This document shows, piece by piece, positions 687 through 10,067 of a DNA stretch of 10,413 nucleotides. Origin of the DNA: Anaerolineales bacterium (lineage in GTDB: Bacteria; Chloroflexota; Anaerolineae; Anaerolineales; Villigracilaceae); the NCBI GenBank assembly GCA_015489255.1, contig WGAD01000246.1, forward strand, positions 1 to 10,413, given 5' to 3'. A program made the translations under genes and the position numbers. The notes below the pieces were generated by a model, which worked only from the letters and a program-made list of their open reading frames with translations, did no database searches and had not been told where the DNA came from. Position 1 is the first letter of the stretch. The number at the start of each line of letters is the position of its first letter.

Positions 687-1133
687 ATGGAACCGGAGAA
701 ATTGCTGGAATATCTCGGATATGAGGTCGAAGAGAATGGCAGATTGGTGGTGATTTACAAAACGATGGACGAGTGGGAGCGTGAAAGAGATACAAAATTC
801 CACTATTATTACGATGAAAAAACAGGCATCCTCTATGGTGATTACCCGGTAGAAAAAGTCTTATTACCCATCGGGAAGGCCACAACGGTCGAGAAGGCTG
901 TCTTGATTGCGCGTTGGGAGCTTGAAAGGCTATTCCGGGATAGGGCTTATAACATGCAGCAATCGCGGCGTGTAACTGAGTTAATGTACAGAAAGGACAA
1001 AGAAGGGGTATGGCGGCGTCAGCAATATATCTGCTACAGCCCGGAAGAAGAGGAACGTATCCTACAGGAACAGGCGAAGATACTGGCACAGCAAGACAAA
1101 AAGGCCGGTATGGGTGGAGAAGGTGGAGATTGA
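687..1133 (+). CDS. Small acidic protein of unknown function, candidate immunity protein
   Basis: The product is 148 residues, soluble, rich in Glu, Lys and aromatic residues, with no signal peptide or membrane segment. The ATG at 687 is preceded by a near-perfect ribosome-binding site AAGGAGGTG at 674-682. I do not recognise the family. The first 80 residues look like a small alpha/beta domain (ending around YGDYPVEKVLL), and the rest is strongly helical and charged, ending in a Gly-rich tail. It lies 16 bp after the putative toxin 3' end on the same strand, so the two are probably co-transcribed; a small, acidic, orphan-like protein in that position is typical of immunity proteins. This role is inferred only from position and composition. 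An ordinary hypothetical protein remains possible. Confidence 0.8.
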   Translation: MEPEKLLEYLGYEVEENGRLVVIYKTMDEWERERDTKFHYYYDEKTGILYGDYPVEKVLLPIGKATTVEKAVLIARWELERLFRDRAYNMQQSRRVTELMYRKDKEGVWRRQQYICYSPEEEERILQEQAKILAQQDKKAGMGGEGGD

Positions 1134-2383: not shown

Positions 2384-2899
2384 TTAAAAAATCGGATCCC
2401 AGGGGAAGCGATACAAGAAACCCAATGCGCCTTGCCGGTAGCGCAAGACGATGCGTTGCGACCGACGAATAAGTATACACTGTATTGGTGGCAGAACGCG
2501 GGTGCCGAGTTCTGGGTGCCTGGCTTTAATGCGCAGAAAGCATTGGCCGTAAGCCAGATAATAGGGGTAAAAATCAAGGATTTCAAAAGGCTGTCGGCGG
2601 ACTTGTTGCCCGCCTGTGGGTAGCAAATTCATCAGTTTGGCCAGCCCGCGAATGGCCGCTCCCCAGGCAACCGTCACAAGAAGCGTCATCGCAGTCATCG
2701 GCTGGATGAGCCAGCAGACCAGCAGAATGCCTCCCAGGAGTATTTGTAATCCTGTCCCATAAAAACGGATGGGCAGGAAATGCGCTTGCACAGAGGCCAG
2801 GTGTTTCTCGAACGCAAACATCCACCGGGGGAGTTCACTGGCAATTGTAAAATCGACCAGGATCAGAAAAAACAGGAAATACCACAGAATGTCATTCAC
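2384..2899 (-). CDS. Small membrane protein, translationally coupled to the kinase-DUF309 gene
   Basis: I place the start at GTG 2899, giving 171 residues. This GTG overlaps the TGA of the upstream gene (GTGA, 4-bp overlap) and is preceded by GGAG eight bases away, so translation is probably coupled; frames starting further upstream would read through the upstream gene. Hydrophobic segments lie at about residues 2-20, 47-66 and 70-89, so this is an integral membrane protein with three helices and a cytoplasmic-looking basic C-terminal part. I do not recognise the family. The last 40 or so residues (after KARHPELGT) are basic, low in recognisable structure, and encoded next to repeat-like DNA, so the original stop may have been lost and the tail added secondarily. 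Function unknown; being downstream of the NTPase is the only clue. Confidence 0.7.
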   Translation of the reverse strand: MNDILWYFLFFLILVDFTIASELPRWMFAFEKHLASVQAHFLPIRFYGTGLQILLGGILLVCWLIQPMTAMTLLVTVAWGAAIRGLAKLMNLLPTGGQQVRRQPFEILDFYPYYLAYGQCFLRIKARHPELGTRVLPPIQCILIRRSQRIVLRYRQGALGFLYRFPWDPIF

Positions 2900-3777
2900 G
2901 TTCTTTGCTCCAGCAAGATTTGCGGCCAGCGGTGCGGCGGGCGGGGGGCGGCCAGCATGGCATCCAGGGATTGTTGCAGCGCGCGGACGTGCACCCCGGC
3001 GGTCACCGGCGGCCATTTGTCCAGCCACTTGCGGCTGCGGTCGCGCACCAGGGCGGCCCCGCGCAGGTTGCCGCGCTGCAAATGCAGGCAGGACACGCTG
3101 ACCTGCAGCAGCCCGCGGTACAGGTCGCGGACCGGGTGGTCGGTGGCCCGCCAGGCGTCTTCCAGCGCTTCGTGGGCCTCGAAAAAGGCTGCCGCGTTGA
3201 AGAGCCGGATGCCTTCCAGGGCTTCGGTTGCCAGGCGGAAAGGCGGCAGGCCCGCCAGCCAGGCCTGCGCTTCATCCGGATGCCGGAAGCGCAGCGCGGG
3301 GGCCTCCGCAGCGGCCAGCAGGTCGGGGTATTCGCGGGCATGACGCCGCAGCGAATAGGCCTGCCAGGCGAAGAGCGATCGTTTGCGATTCCACAACTGA
3401 AGGTGCGGCCAAAGCCGTTCGGTGTTGCCGTTCCAGAGCTTCTGACGGCTCAACCCGCGGGCGAGCGTGCGGCGCAGCAGGCGCGGGAAGACGATGCGCC
3501 AGGGGTAATCGAGCCAGATGATCAGATTGGCTTGCGGCCAGACCAGGTCGCGGACTTTGGAGTAGTTGCCATCCAGCACCCAGGCTGGGGACGAGGCGGC
3601 AGCGGCCGCCCGTCGGCGGAACGTCTCTTCGGGGACGGGCGTCCAGCCTGTCCCCCAGTGCAGCGCGTCCAGCTCAACGTGTGGGATGGCCAGCCGGGCG
3701 CTGACCTGCCGGGCCAGGGTGGTCTTGCCGCTACCGGTGACGCCCAGCAGCACGATTTTCGGGCGGTCGGGGATCAT
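2896..3777 (-). CDS. FlaR-like P-loop NTPase/kinase fused to a DUF309 domain
   Basis: The product has 293 residues from ATG 3777. The N-terminal domain (about 7-165) is an adenylate-kinase-like P-loop NTPase: Walker A G12-VTGSGKT-T20, then ELDALHWGTGW (35-45), VLDGNY (67-72) and LIIWLDYP (85-92), the pattern of the FlaR/'DNA topology modulation' group of putative kinases. The C-terminal domain (about 190-270) has the DUF309 signature FNAAAFFEAHEALEDAW (193-209), followed by a helical GLLQVSVSCLHLQRGN block. Both domains are well-formed and in one uninterrupted frame. DUF309 usually occurs as a stand-alone small protein; its biochemical role is unknown to me. The nucleotide substrate of the kinase part cannot be told from sequence. 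The start 3777 fits the promoter (see 3785-3792) and would give a leaderless message; a TTG further upstream would run into the divergent gene's leader. The membrane-protein gene overlaps its stop. Confidence 0.88.
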   Translation of the reverse strand: MIPDRPKIVLLGVTGSGKTTLARQVSARLAIPHVELDALHWGTGWTPVPEETFRRRAAAAASSPAWVLDGNYSKVRDLVWPQANLIIWLDYPWRIVFPRLLRRTLARGLSRQKLWNGNTERLWPHLQLWNRKRSLFAWQAYSLRRHAREYPDLLAAAEAPALRFRHPDEAQAWLAGLPPFRLATEALEGIRLFNAAAFFEAHEALEDAWRATDHPVRDLYRGLLQVSVSCLHLQRGNLRGAALVRDRSRKWLDKWPPVTAGVHVRALQQSLDAMLAAPRPPHRWPQILLEQRT

Positions 3778-3784
3778 GGGGCGT

Positions 3785-3792
3785 ATTATAAT
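3785..3792. promoter_or_regulatory. Symmetric -10 element shared by two divergent genes
   Basis: ATTATAAT is its own reverse complement, so a consensus TATAAT is present on the plus strand (3787-3792) and on the minus strand (3790-3785). On the minus strand it ends seven bases before ATG 3777, placing the expected transcription start at or beside the start codon (leaderless message; no Shine-Dalgarno is seen there). On the plus strand the expected start is near 3799, leaving a leader of about 28 bases with GAGGAG at 3815-3820 before ATG 3828. No good -35 hexamer is seen on either side. Confidence 0.6.
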
Positions 3793-3827
3793 CGGCTTGC
3801 GGTTCAATTTTCTTGAGGAGAACAAGC

Positions 3828-5239: not shown

Positions 5240-5245
5240 TAAAAT
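5240..5245 (+). promoter_or_regulatory. Candidate -10 element for groES
   Basis: TAAAAT at 5240-5245 would start transcription near 5252, giving a leader of about 43 bases to ATG 5295. The corresponding -35 position (5217-5222, TTTTTA) is poor. No CIRCE operator (TTAGCACTC-N9-GAGTGCTAA), the HrcA site often found before groES, is seen here. Confidence 0.35.
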
Positions 5246-5294
5246 GGCAGCGCAATCGTTCCAACAAACCCAATCCTTGCTAAGGAGTGTAACC

Positions 5295-5570
5295 ATGAGC
5301 GACATGAACATTCAACCCCTGGGTACTCGTGTGCTGATTCGCCCGATCGAACAAGAAGCCAAGACCTCTAGCGGCATTTTGCTGCCGGAAACCGCCAAAG
5401 AGAAACCCCAAATGGGCGAGGTGATCGCCATCGGCGACGAAACCGAAGATATCCCCGTGGAAGTGGGGCAGAAGGTGCTGTTCCCGAAATACACCGGCAC
5501 CGAAATCAAGATCGACGGCGAGGAACACCTGATCATGGAAGCCAGCGACCTGTTGGCGATCGTCAAATAA
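5295..5570 (+). CDS. groES: Co-chaperonin GroES (Hsp10)
   Basis: The product is 91 residues, the normal GroES length. GroES forms the seven-membered lid of the GroEL folding chamber in the cytoplasm. Visible hallmarks are the N-terminal strand IQPLGTRVLIRP, the mobile loop around 21-36 with the GroEL-binding SSGILLP, the stretch GEVIAIGDE, and the C-terminal VGQKVLFPKYTGTEIKIDGEEHLIMEASDLLAIV. Start ATG 5295 is chosen because AAGGAG (5282-5287) lies seven bases before it; an in-frame ATG further up (5244) lacks a site. Oddity: groEL does not follow; the gene has its own terminator (5606-5642) and is followed by a flavoprotein gene, so groEL must lie elsewhere. Family assignment is firm. Confidence 0.97.
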   Translation: MSDMNIQPLGTRVLIRPIEQEAKTSSGILLPETAKEKPQMGEVIAIGDETEDIPVEVGQKVLFPKYTGTEIKIDGEEHLIMEASDLLAIVK

Positions 5571-5642: not shown

Positions 5643-5685
5643 CTGATTTACCGGTATCATAGACATACACCAAGGAGGTGAACCC

Positions 5686-6663
5686 ATGTTTTCCTTGAAT
5701 ATGTCTGGCAGCAGCCAGGCAGATGCAGATACCCTCTATGATGTGATCATCGTAGGCGCTGGTTCCGCTGGCCTGACGACGGCCATTTATACCAGCCGCG
5801 ATGGCTGGAAGACGCTGGTGCTGGAAAAGGCCAGCGTGGGCGGCCTGGCGGCTTCTACCCACCTGATTGAAAACTACCCGGGTTTCCCGGAAGGCGTGGA
5901 AGGGCCGGAACTGATGGAAAAGTTCCAGCAGCAGGCCGAACGCTTTGGCGCCCAGGTAGTCGATTTCGATGAGGTCACCCAGATAGACAAGGGGGCGGAT
6001 GGCATCTTTACCTTGCACACCAGCGAAGGCCAGACCTTTAAAGGCCGGGCGGTGTTGCTGGCAACGGGCAGCCAGCCGAAAAAACTGGGCATCCCGGGCG
6101 AGGCGGAATTCGCCAACAAGGGCGTTTCCTATTGCGCCACCTGTGACGGCCCGCTCTACAAAGACGAGGACGTGGTGGTCATCGGCTGCGGAAATTCCGG
6201 TTTGCAGGAAGCCGAAATCTTGCTGCAATACGCCAAAAGCGTGACCTTCGTTGAATTTCTGGATCACTCCATTGCCGAAAAAGTTTTGCAAGACCGTGTG
6301 CAAGGCAACCCCAAGACCAAATGCCTCTTCTCGCACATAGCGGTGGAAGTGAAAGGCGACCAATTTGTCAAGGCGGTGGTGGTCAAGAATCGCGAAACAG
6401 GTGAATTGACCGAAATCCCCGCCAAGGCGGTCTTCATCTACGTCGGCTACCAGCCGGATACAGATTTCGTCAAAGGGCTGGTCGATTTGAACGACTACGG
6501 CTACATTATCACCGATCGCCACATGCGCACCTCGGTGCCGGGCATCTTCGCGGCGGGCGACGTGCGCGCCGATAACCTGGCACAGGTTGCGGTGGCGGTG
6601 GGCGATGGCGCCAAGGCGGCAGTGGCCATTCGTGAATATTTGCAAAATTCGAACCAGGCGTAA
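5686..6663 (+). CDS. Thioredoxin-reductase-family flavoprotein lacking the NADPH motif
   Basis: The product has 325 residues with the low-molecular-weight thioredoxin reductase layout: FAD motif GAGSAG at 24-29, redox centre C150-A-T-C153 ([10 protein letters not shown]), a nucleotide-binding-like domain at about 160-250, and the C-terminal FAD motif GIFAAGD with D292. Two canonical NADPH features are missing. The HRRxxxR motif that grips the 2'-phosphate is replaced by EFLDHSIAE (from E190, aligned with H179 of the neighbour), and GGGDSA has become GCGNSG (167-172). The Arg of the RQ motif is also Ala (A299-Q300). Such changes are known in thioredoxin reductases that do not use NADPH, for example ferredoxin-dependent flavin thioredoxin reductases of clostridia; the donor here is therefore inferred to be something else. 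Start ATG 5686 has a perfect AAGGAGGTG site at 5672-5680. The canonical paralogue starts 11 bases after its stop, so the two form an operon. Confidence 0.92.
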
Positions 6664-6674
6664 GGAGTGCAACG

Positions 6675-7613
6675 ATGAACGCCAAACTTCCTGTCCGCCA
6701 GGTGGACGCCCTGGTGATCGGCTCCGGGCCGGCAGGCCTTTCTGCGGCCATTTATCTTTCTCGCGCCAACCTGAACACGGTGGTGCTTTCGGGGATGGAC
6801 CTGGGCGGACAGGTTTCCATTACCTACATGGTGGAAAACTACCCGGGCTTCCCGGATGGCATTTCCGGTGAGGGGCTGGTGGAAGCCTTTCGCACCCAGG
6901 CGGAGAAATTCGGCGCCGAGATCGTCTTCGACGTGGCCGTGGAAGTGGATTTTTCGCGGCGCCCCTTTGTGGTCAAAACGTATGGCGAAGAGATCCACGC
7001 CCGCACGGTGATTGTGGCGACCGGCGCCACCGCCCGTAAACTGGACGTCCCCGGCGAGGAAGCCTTTACCGGGCGCGGCGTCTCCTATTGTGCCACTTGC
7101 GACGGACACTTCTTCCAGGGGATGGACGTGGTGGTCGTCGGGGGCGGCGACAGCGCCGTCGAAGAGGCGCTTTTCCTGACGCGTTACGCCTCCTCGGTGA
7201 CCATCATCCACCGCCGGGATCAGCTGCGCGCCAGCGCTTTGCTGCAAGAGCGTGCCCGCGCCAACGATAAAATCGCTTTCATCTGGAATACGGTGGTCAC
7301 CGAAATCCTGGGCGATGAAGCGGTTCATTCGCTGCGGCTGAAGAACGTCCAGACGGGTGAAGAATCCCTCCTGGAGACGAAAGGCGTCTTCATCTTCATC
7401 GGCCACACGCCGAACACAGCGCTTTTCCAGGGGCAGCTGGAGATGGACGAACGCGGCTACCTGGTGGTGGACGCACGGATGCACACCAGCGTGCCCGGCG
7501 TGTTCGCAGCGGGCGAAGCGGCAGACCCGCATTTTCGCCAGGTGATCACCTCGGCGGGCATGGGCGCTGCGGCGGCGATGGAAGCAGGCCATTACCTGGA
7601 AAACGAGCGTTAA
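6675..7613 (+). CDS. trxB: Thioredoxin-disulfide reductase (NADPH type)
   Basis: The product has 312 residues, normal for bacterial TrxB, which passes electrons from NADPH through FAD and a disulfide to thioredoxin in the cytoplasm. All expected motifs are present: FAD motif GSGPAG (16-21), redox C139-A-T-C142, NADPH motif GGGDSA (156-161), HRRDQLRA (179-186) for the 2'-phosphate, and FRQVITSAG near the C-terminus. One oddity: the usual AAGD at the FAD pyrophosphate/ribityl site reads AAGE (E281), a conservative change in a very conserved position. Its AAGGAG site (6662-6667) overlaps the stop of the preceding gene, so the two are translated from one message. An 18-bp hairpin begins in its own stop codon and should end the operon. 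Confidence 0.96.
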
Positions 7614-7744: not shown

Positions 7745-8695
<951 letters not shown>

Positions 8696-8710: not shown

Positions 8711-8734
8711 GCCGCTCATGTCCACATGGGCGGC
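8711..8734 (+). promoter_or_regulatory. Hairpin between mdh and citrate synthase genes
   Basis: GCCGCTCATG (8711-8720) pairs with CATGGGCGGC (8725-8734) through ten base pairs, one of them G-U in RNA, around a 4-base loop TCCA. No T-run follows, so complete termination is unlikely. It may be an mRNA processing or stability element that sets the ratio of the two enzymes. Confidence 0.45.
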
Positions 8735-8765
8735 CTTCCCTATCCCTGTTTCTGGAGGAGACACA

Positions 8766-10067
8766 ATGATTCTCAAAGAAAAAATCTCTGCAATGCTGCC
8801 CGAATGGCGCGAGCGCGTGACCAAGCTGCTCAAAGAGCACGGCAGTGTGGTGGTCGGCGATGTGACCATCAAGCAGGTCTATGGGGGGATGCGCGGCGTC
8901 AAGGCGCTGGTAACCGATATTTCGTATGTCGATCCAAACTCGGGCATCCGCTTCCGCGGGCACACCATCCCCGAGGTGCTGGAAAAACTGCCGAAACCGG
9001 ATGGCGCCGAGATGCCCTATGTGGGCGGCCTCTACTACCTCTTGCTGACGGGCGAATTTCCGACCAAAGAGGAGGCCGAGGCGGTTGAGGCGGAATGGGC
9101 CAAAAACGCCGAGGTGCCGGCGCACGTCTTTGACGTGCTGCGGGCGATGCCCAAAGATACGCACCCGATGGCGCTGTTTTCCATGGCCGTTTTGGCGCTG
9201 CAAGGCGAATCCAAGTTTGCCCGGCGCTACGCTGAGGGCATGAACAAATTCGAGTACTGGGATCCGGCCCTCGATGACGCCATGGCTCTGACGGCCAAAC
9301 TGCCGGTGGTGGCGGCTTTCATTTACCGCTTGAAGTACAAGGATGGCGCGGAACCGAAGTACGACCCGAACATGGATTATGGCGCCAACTTCGCCCGCAT
9401 GATGGGCGTTGATAACCCGGGTTACGCCGACCTGGCGCGCTTGTACTTCATCCTGCATTCCGACCACGAAAGCGGCAACGTCAGTGCCCACACCATGCAC
9501 CTGGTTGGTTCGGCCCTGGCCGACCCGTACTACGCTTTCTCGGCGGCGATGGACGGTCTGGCCGGCCCCTTGCACGGCCTGGCGAACCAGAAGGCATTGG
9601 GTTTCCTGATGTCGATCCGCGACAAGTTCGGCGGTGTTCCCTCCCAGGAGCAGCTGCGCGAATTCTTGTGGGATACGCTCAACAGCGGCCAGGTGATTCC
9701 CGGGTATGGGCACGCGGTGCTGCGCGTCCCCGATCCGCGTTATGTGGCGCAGTTTGAGTTTGCCAAGAAGAATTTCCCCGATGACGAACTCTTCCGCCTG
9801 GTGCAACTGATGTACGATACCGTTCCGCCGGTGCTGCAGGAGCAGGGCAAGGCGAAGAACCCGTGGCCGAACGTGGATGCCATCAGCGGCACGCTGCAAT
9901 ATTACTACGGCGTGACGGAATTCGATTTCTACACCGTGCTCTTTGGCGTAGGCCGCGCCCTGGGCGTGACGGCCAACTACGTTTGGGCGCGCGCGCTGGG
10001 GCAGCCGATCGAGCGCCCCAAATCGCTGACCACGGCCATGCTGGAAGAAGCCGCCCAGAAGGCCTGA
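8766..10067 (+). CDS. gltA: Citrate (Si)-synthase, eukaryotic/mitochondrial type
   Basis: The product has 433 residues and condenses oxaloacetate with acetyl-CoA to citrate. It matches the mitochondrial (type I) enzyme far better than the usual bacterial hexameric type: LHSDHESGNVSAHTMHLVGS, DGLAGPLHGLANQ, SGQVIPGYGHAVLR, QGKAKNPWPNVDAISG, and the C-terminal YYTVLFGVGRALGV. Catalytic residues are H270, H316 and D371, exactly four positions below the pig-heart numbers 274, 320 and 375; the oxaloacetate-binding histidine is H234 or its neighbour H231 in HSDHE. Small differences from mitochondrial sequences are E-S-G for E-G-G and DAISG for DAHSG. Start ATG 8766 is chosen for the GGAGGAG site immediately before it; an in-frame ATG at 8718 has none. 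It has no mitochondrial-like leader. It lies 70 bases after mdh and ends in a strong terminator. Confidence 0.95.
   Translation: MILKEKISAMLPEWRERVTKLLKEHGSVVVGDVTIKQVYGGMRGVKALVTDISYVDPNSGIRFRGHTIPEVLEKLPKPDGAEMPYVGGLYYLLLTGEFPTKEEAEAVEAEWAKNAEVPAHVFDVLRAMPKDTHPMALFSMAVLALQGESKFARRYAEGMNKFEYWDPALDDAMALTAKLPVVAAFIYRLKYKDGAEPKYDPNMDYGANFARMMGVDNPGYADLARLYFILHSDHESGNVSAHTMHLVGSALADPYYAFSAAMDGLAGPLHGLANQKALGFLMSIRDKFGGVPSQEQLREFLWDTLNSGQVIPGYGHAVLRVPDPRYVAQFEFAKKNFPDDELFRLVQLMYDTVPPVLQEQGKAKNPWPNVDAISGTLQYYYGVTEFDFYTVLFGVGRALGVTANYVWARALGQPIERPKSLTTAMLEEAAQKA

Follow-up and report, generated by a model that had tools for sequence, protein, structure and literature searches.

The stretch of Anaerolineales DNA analyzed here (10,413 nucleotides of contig WGAD01000246.1; hereafter, the window) encodes at 5686..6663 on the + strand a thioredoxin reductase (TrxR)-like FAD disulfide reductase that most probably takes its electrons from NADH and not from NADPH. 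Judged from its sequence and that of its relatives, the protein is likely to be an unfused, AhpF-core-like, predicted NADH-dependent disulfide reductase that serves PDO. A first-pass annotation had described a TrxR paralogue that has lost the NADPH-binding motif and receives electrons from ferredoxin, another flavoprotein or an unusual donor. The loss of HRRxxxR on which this was based is real, but the loop GCGNSG is still an intact GxGxxG, and the site appears to have been rewritten in the direction of NADH, as in AhpF. Because the Gly/Glu pattern matches both AhpF and the rule for NAD enzymes, we interpret the finding as a nucleotide switch rather than a loss, and the donor proposed earlier is probably wrong.

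The gene is an intact open reading frame of 325 amino acids, and in the sequence upstream of it we read the Shine-Dalgarno-like element AAGGAGGTG (5672..5680, +). The redox center and both FAD motifs are intact, as first described: the first FAD (ADP-binding) motif GAGSAG lies at residues 24-29 (5755..5772, +), with G24, G26 and G29 invariant among 16 aligned clade members, the redox-active CATC at residues 150-153 (6133..6144, +) and the second FAD motif FAAGD at residues 288-292 (6547..6561, +). Both CATC cysteines are present in 121/121 sequences of our homologue set, which consists of the query and its best 120 homologues, all at an identity of 59% or more, out of 7996 retained from 8000 scored candidates. 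Alignment places the pyridine-dinucleotide pyrophosphate loop GCGNSG, a GxGxxG of NAD type, at residues 167-172 (6184..6201, +), and E190-F-L-D-H-S-I-A-E (residues 190-198; 6253..6279, +) stands where HRRxxxR is expected. The replacement of the RQ arginine by alanine was likewise confirmed: by alignment with AhpF, which has K-Q, the RQ position is A299-Q300 (6580..6585, +), and A299 is kept in 121/121 sequences of the homologue set. The protein scores 356 bits against TIGR01292 (thioredoxin-disulfide reductase; cut-off 343), a model that is blind to the electron donor.

The argument for NADH centers on the nucleotide site. The region comprising GCGNSG and E190 aligns with GGGNSG...VTLLEFAPEMKADQVLQDK of Escherichia coli AhpF, in which GGGNSG occupies residues 362-367 and the Glu is E385, and E. 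coli Lpd carries GGGIIG...VVEMFD by sequence comparison. Relative to canonical TrxB, the loop has changed from GxGxxA to GxGxxG, and HRRD has been replaced by E190-F-L-D; Q174 takes the place of the Glu of GxGxxAxE, which counts against the NADH reading. The notable change within the loop is Ala to Gly (with Cys at the second position), since Asn for Asp in GGGDSA is ordinary and is also seen in the aligned E. coli TrxB loop, GGGNTA. In NADH enzymes of this fold, Glu contacts the ribose. The second Rossmann strand comprises residues 185-189 in a predicted AlphaFold model of the reductase (pLDDT 91.6; 96 sequences), and E190 is thus at the NAD-diagnostic place because the strand ends at residue 189. 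Inspection of the pocket in a structural model had been suggested in the first-pass annotation; the model is confident and positions the Glu directly after strand 2, with the pocket viewed, ligand-free, as secondary structure and fold matches.

Published work gives this pattern its meaning. According to PMC5817062, the Rossmann loop reads GxGxxG in its NAD version and GxGxxA in its NADP version, strand 2 of NAD-preferring enzymes usually ends in an acidic residue, and such a residue is unfavorable to the 2'-phosphate; an E. coli glutathione reductase engineered from NADP to NAD use carries the replacements A179G, A183G, V197E, R198M, K199F, H200D and R204P (PMC5817062). E. coli AhpF used NADH, and TrxB and GorA used NADPH (PMC4960239). 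The same paper describes NADH-dependent tellurite reduction by Staphylococcus TrxB and a preference of E3 for NADPH in tellurite reduction, although its authors name NADH as the normal cofactor of E3, and the donor is therefore not always readable from the family (PMC4960239). Neither is the Gly rule absolute, given that the pyrophosphate motif for NAD(P)H in TrxR and FNR is described as GXGXXA/G (PMC8564101). Because of these caveats, our argument rests on the pair of Gly and Glu and on the loss of all basic residues of HRRxxxR.

The changed motifs are neither a sequencing error nor a product of chance, because they are kept across the 121 sequences of the homologue set: E190 in 118/121 and G172 in 119/121, alongside N170 (119/121), L192 (118/121) and R204 (119/121). 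Four of the best 120 of 7996 homologues carry an organism name, namely Chloroflexi, Anaerolineae (twice) and Thermoflexia. The three exceptions at E190 are P0102, with Ala at 190, and P0109 and P0111, with Tyr at 190 and Ala at 172. In these last two, which have lost Glu and Gly together, the motifs are GYGDAA and YYKP, and two residues are inserted. Inside the GCGNSG loop, C168 (window 6187-6189) is Cys in 95/121 and Ala in 23/121 sequences of the homologue set; it might be redox-sensitive.

A coupling between the two positions was also observed in a broader set of 119 rows assembled for tree building, in which Glu at 190 is accompanied by Gly at 172 in 29/29 rows. Among rows of NADPH type, a pattern that also took in L059 (HQF) and L079 (HRK), position 172 is Ala in 71/72 and Cys in one; of the remaining 18 rows, 13 have Ala and five have Gly without Glu, a further sign that the Gly rule is not absolute. 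Correction for phylogeny left six independent pairs differing in Glu, four concordant for Gly, none opposed and two the same (p 0.125), and the 29/29 coupling is thus descriptive. As a pattern across the tree, it is supportive of the NADH reading rather than proof of it.

In the trees, the reductase groups within a well-defined, supported clade that is distinct from typical TrxB of the NADPH type. This clade comprises 25 rows with an SH-aLRT of 99 in the 119-row tree (134 rows minus 30 near-redundant canonical ones, plus 15 others), and 15 rows with a support of 100/98 in a tree of 56 of these 119 rows from which the motif columns were removed. The first-pass annotation had likewise set the protein apart from ordinary TrxB, and in both trees, whose rows do not include FFTR sequences, it falls outside the main NADPH-TrxB group. 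Support for the branch isolating the NADPH group is only moderate (83 in the 119-row tree, 91/94 in the 56-row tree); one HRR row (L055) lies outside this group, and a Zixibacteria row that carries the Glu motif lies inside it in the 56-row tree. Glu occurs at four separate places in the 56-row tree, namely AhpF, a Chloroflexota group typified by L023, the clade of the reductase and the Zixibacteria sequence; without the motif columns, this state needs seven changes, at least six of them on starred branches.

Other placements were considered. A position nested within NADPH-TrxB, with drifted motifs, is not supported, the clade being separate even without the motif columns. A recent tandem duplication is not supported either: the neighboring reductases of the window are 41% identical and belong to different tree groups. 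The Thermotogales NADH-preferring group was suggested by the best PDB sequence match of the reductase, 7jyp from Thermosipho africanus (287 bits), but both trees split the two. Within the sampled class, clade members at an identity of 57% or more were found in 13/298 genomes; G044, G049, G148 and G151 passed the E-value at 44-47% identity but have HRR and were left out of this count. Among the best 80 of at least 591 matching stretches on named genome contigs, the only clade member is L051, from an Anaerolineales bacterium, a scan that does not show the spread of the clade.

Several known systems invite comparison. AhpF, an NADH:peroxiredoxin reductase, resembles the reductase in having GxGxxG and Glu at the same positions of its core, but it has a fused N-terminal double Trx-fold domain, which our domain and profile search did not find in the 325-amino acid reductase, and it lies on a separate tree branch. 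Profile scores do not favor AhpF for the reductase over TrxB2, its canonical neighbor in the window: against the AhpF profile TIGR03140 (cut-off 503), the reductase scores 259 bits and TrxB2 254 bits. TIGR03143 ("AhpF_homolog") describes a TrxR part followed by a PDO-like part. The reductase matches the first part with 289 bits (cut-off 688) and the clade PDO of L155 the second with 111 bits, the two being separate genes in the clade; the match of the reductase is not specific, because TrxB2 scores higher on the first part (328 bits). Low-Mr NADPH-dependent TrxB shares the fold, the FAD and CATC motifs and the passing of TIGR01292, but the reductase has NAD-type nucleotide motifs instead. The TR of Thermotoga maritima is said to prefer NADH (PMC5627308, citing earlier work). 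The T. maritima and T. africanus TRs have also lost HRR, but they carry QNLP or QLLE with GGGDSA, not GxGxxG with Glu, and are on another branch. Glu is thus not the sole route to NADH, because the Thermotogales TRs have Gln with GGGDSA. A second Chloroflexota group (L023, L024, L026, L029 and L037) is TrxR-like and has GGGNSG with Glu at the HRR position. One of its members, L023:1147-2421:+, has an N-terminal glutaredoxin (mycoredoxin-like) domain and so resembles AhpF in layout, but with a single carrier domain. A recurrent association of NADH-type motifs with dithiol carriers emerges, the two being fused in AhpF and L023 and lying near each other in the clade.

The carrier encoded near the clade reductases is PDO. 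It is a same-strand neighbor in 12/16 clade loci (L051, L150-L160) compared with 2/79 other TrxR loci (L056, L125; Fisher p 3e-10, kinship ignored). Its distance to the reductase match is at most 350 nt in 10 of these 12 clade loci, about 1.2 kb in L160 and 1.9 kb in L051. Leaving the window aside, the class sample has 12 clade members, and each has PDO in its flanking stretch, the PDO of L138 being cut by the end of its stretch. At the level of genomes, PDO scored over the cut-off in 13/13 clade-bearing genomes of the 298-genome class sample compared with 152/285 others (Fisher p 0.0004, kinship ignored), PDO being common anyway in this class (165/298); a 41-genome sample of relatives has PDO in 4/4 clade bearers and 21/37 others. 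The L155 PDO scores 232 bits against TIGR02187 and 82 bits against the N-terminal half of AhpF, in addition to its match to the C-terminal part of the fusion profile TIGR03143. Taken together, these neighborhoods and co-occurrences point to PDO as a reasonably likely main acceptor. In the PDO gene at G022:C39:19393-20022 (L176/L199), TGA replaces the codon for the first Cys of the C-terminal CPYC, and a single internal TGA likewise occurs in many further PDO genes from the class.

The observed motifs, their conservation, the fold, the clade and the gene neighborhoods are consistent with the following mechanism. The reductase would be a low-molecular-weight enzyme of the TrxR/AhpF-core type, presumably a homodimer, whose second Rossmann domain would bind NADH at its GxGxxG loop, with E190 touching the 2'- and 3'-hydroxyls of the adenosine ribose. 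FAD would accept the hydride, and the electrons would move on to the disulfide of CATC. Following the domain rotation that is usual for such enzymes, a Trx-fold carrier would be reduced, which in most clade loci seen is probably the nearby PDO with its two Trx folds (CxxC and CPYC). The reductase and PDO together would constitute an AhpF split over two genes and may feed peroxiredoxins and other thiol enzymes. In Sulfolobus, a TR reduces a PDO that serves peroxiredoxins, a system described as NADPH-driven (PMC7465337). The likeness is the pairing of TR and PDO; the clade differs in that its motif points to NADH and its genes are in Chloroflexota.

In the remaining four clade loci (the window, L147, L148 and L149), no PDO is nearby; TrxB, malate dehydrogenase and citrate synthase are found instead, and PDO is present elsewhere in the four genomes of this tandem type. 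The order in the window, all on the + strand, is class-III aminotransferase, groES (Cpn10; 5244..5570, where the domain begins at residue 22 and the actual start is probably close to 5300), the reductase, a second TrxR (6675..7613), malate dehydrogenase (7760..8695) and citrate synthase (8718..10067). The second TrxR is the canonical NADPH-type TrxB2 (GGGDSA, HRRDQLR and RQ). G022, G030 and G035 have in common the order of reductase, TrxB, malate dehydrogenase and citrate synthase, and the two reductase genes are separated by 11 nt in the window, 80 nt in G035, 185 nt in G030 and 106 nt in G022 (outermost start). The genome of the window has one PDO, on contig C231, which begins at that gene and continues with a glutaredoxin, a dinitrogenase-cofactor-type protein, an AhpC-TSA/TlpA-like protein and an OsmC-family protein. 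Elsewhere in the window, 2896-3825 (-) encodes an apparent fusion of a C-terminal DUF309 (78 bits) and an N-terminal, sub-threshold match to a P-loop kinase-like AAA domain, and two open reading frames at the start of the contig, 20-670 and 687-1133 (both +), have no Pfam or NCBIfam match.

The tandem arrangement could also be taken to indicate that the enzyme is NADH-dependent with ordinary thioredoxin as its acceptor, or as one of two acceptors, the gene pair feeding a single thioredoxin pool from NADH and NADPH. The 11-nt distance to a canonical TrxB would fit, as would the retention of the pair in G022, G030 and G035 and the one thioredoxin over the TIGR01068 cut-off in the genome, which could be the acceptor; nevertheless, PDO is the recurrent neighbor in the other clade loci seen, whose flanks were screened for PDO, and we consider this alternative unlikely. 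For the tandem itself, the simplest conjecture is that NADH and NADPH both feed the reduction of a single thiol pool. It is a doubtful, more far-reaching proposal that a block of the window type couples NADH- and NADPH-type TrxRs to malate dehydrogenase, here of a type that presumably produces NADH, and to citrate synthase in a joint setting of thiol redox, possibly through a mixed NADH/NADPH heterodimer; elsewhere in the phylum, the same enzyme would serve PDO in the manner of a split AhpF.

We regard as improbable a pyridine-nucleotide-independent reductase fed by ferredoxin, flavodoxin or another flavoprotein, the type of donor proposed in the first-pass annotation. HRRxxxR and the RQ arginine are both gone, and the former loss is shared with FFTR and Desulfovibrio TRi; yet GxGxxG is kept in 119/121 sequences of the homologue set together with a conserved Glu at the NAD-diagnostic place, so that the dinucleotide site looks recast toward NADH and not degraded. 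Marks of two nucleotide-independent reductases are absent: the sole Trp of the reductase is residue 41, and there is no Trp-bearing C-terminal tail of the cyanobacterial kind; motif comparison found EFLD and an intact GxGxxG in place of the TQ/NGK of TRi. FFTR likeness was judged by bit scores, and as weak evidence the clade profile scores 246 bits with Gloeobacter 5j60 and 119-146 bits with 6gna, 6gnc and 6gnd, less than the 332 bits with 7jyp, such scores not showing the donor. Neither 5nii, which we take to be TRi, nor 6gna-6gnd, presumably clostridial FFTR, are among the matches listed in two fold comparisons of 50 rows each. Several TrxR-like lineages are described as not using NAD(P)H (PMC5627308, PMC10880999), including Desulfovibrio TRi with TQ/NGK in place of HRRD and a degenerate GGGxxAxE (PMC5627308), and the tail with Trp is described for the cyanobacterial ferredoxin TrxR (PMC12796991). 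Three other TrxR-like paralogues, L192:444-1436:-, L143:482-1726:- and L024:3233-3931:+, have a broken loop (GNNDEA or GNSDEA) and SPT or VPT for HRR; going by these motifs, they seem more promising candidates for taking electrons from something other than NAD(P)H. In L192 and L143, PDO is in the same stretch as the paralogue.

It is highly improbable that the reductase accepts both nucleotides, or uses NADPH, through an alternative mode of binding: R204 (119/121 in the homologue set) can be imagined near a phosphate and the family NAD(P)H motif allows GXGXXG (PMC8564101), but all four basic positions of HRRxxxR, the 2'-phosphate site, are replaced and an acidic residue is put in, making NADPH unlikely as the preferred donor, in agreement with the loss of NADPH use claimed in the first-pass annotation.

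The NADH reading has consequences for how TrxR sequences are classified. At least one survey calls TrxRs without GxGxxA and HRRxxxR non-NTR and probably FFTR (PMC10880999). The clade illustrates how this rule can mislead, given that the motif can be switched toward NADH, as revealed by the Gly/Glu pair, and the main value of our analysis lies in correcting how a missing HRRxxxR is read. If the NADH reading is true, NADH would power PDO and thiol-peroxidase chemistry in this clade (13/298 class genomes), which would connect thiol repair with catabolism, and two positions would largely suffice to divide TrxR families into NADH, NADPH and truly nucleotide-free types. Our literature search, which covered titles and abstracts of open papers, returned none reporting an NADH-type TrxR in Chloroflexota.

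The host had been described as an anaerobe. Its genome, a 2.2-Mb draft of 401 contigs that is 86% complete, encodes a heme-copper oxidase subunit I (G000:C116:1160-2479, 482 bits), and a strict anaerobe is unlikely for this reason; the genes on contig C116 suggest aerobic or microaerobic respiration. The same contig has a weak AhpC/TSA-superfamily match (39 bits) at C116:3580-3969, and eight matches to this superfamily are present in the genome. A peroxiredoxin of the AhpC/TSA type at G000:C62:4086-4484 (L163, L171) has an in-frame TGA at the position of the peroxidatic cysteine (TFV*ATE). It is read as probably a selenoprotein because the genome encodes SelB (C30:1431-3311, 330 bits). A thioredoxin-like match under the cut-off (39 bits) at G000:C85:2243-2509 (L201) also contains one in-frame TGA and is possibly another selenoprotein.
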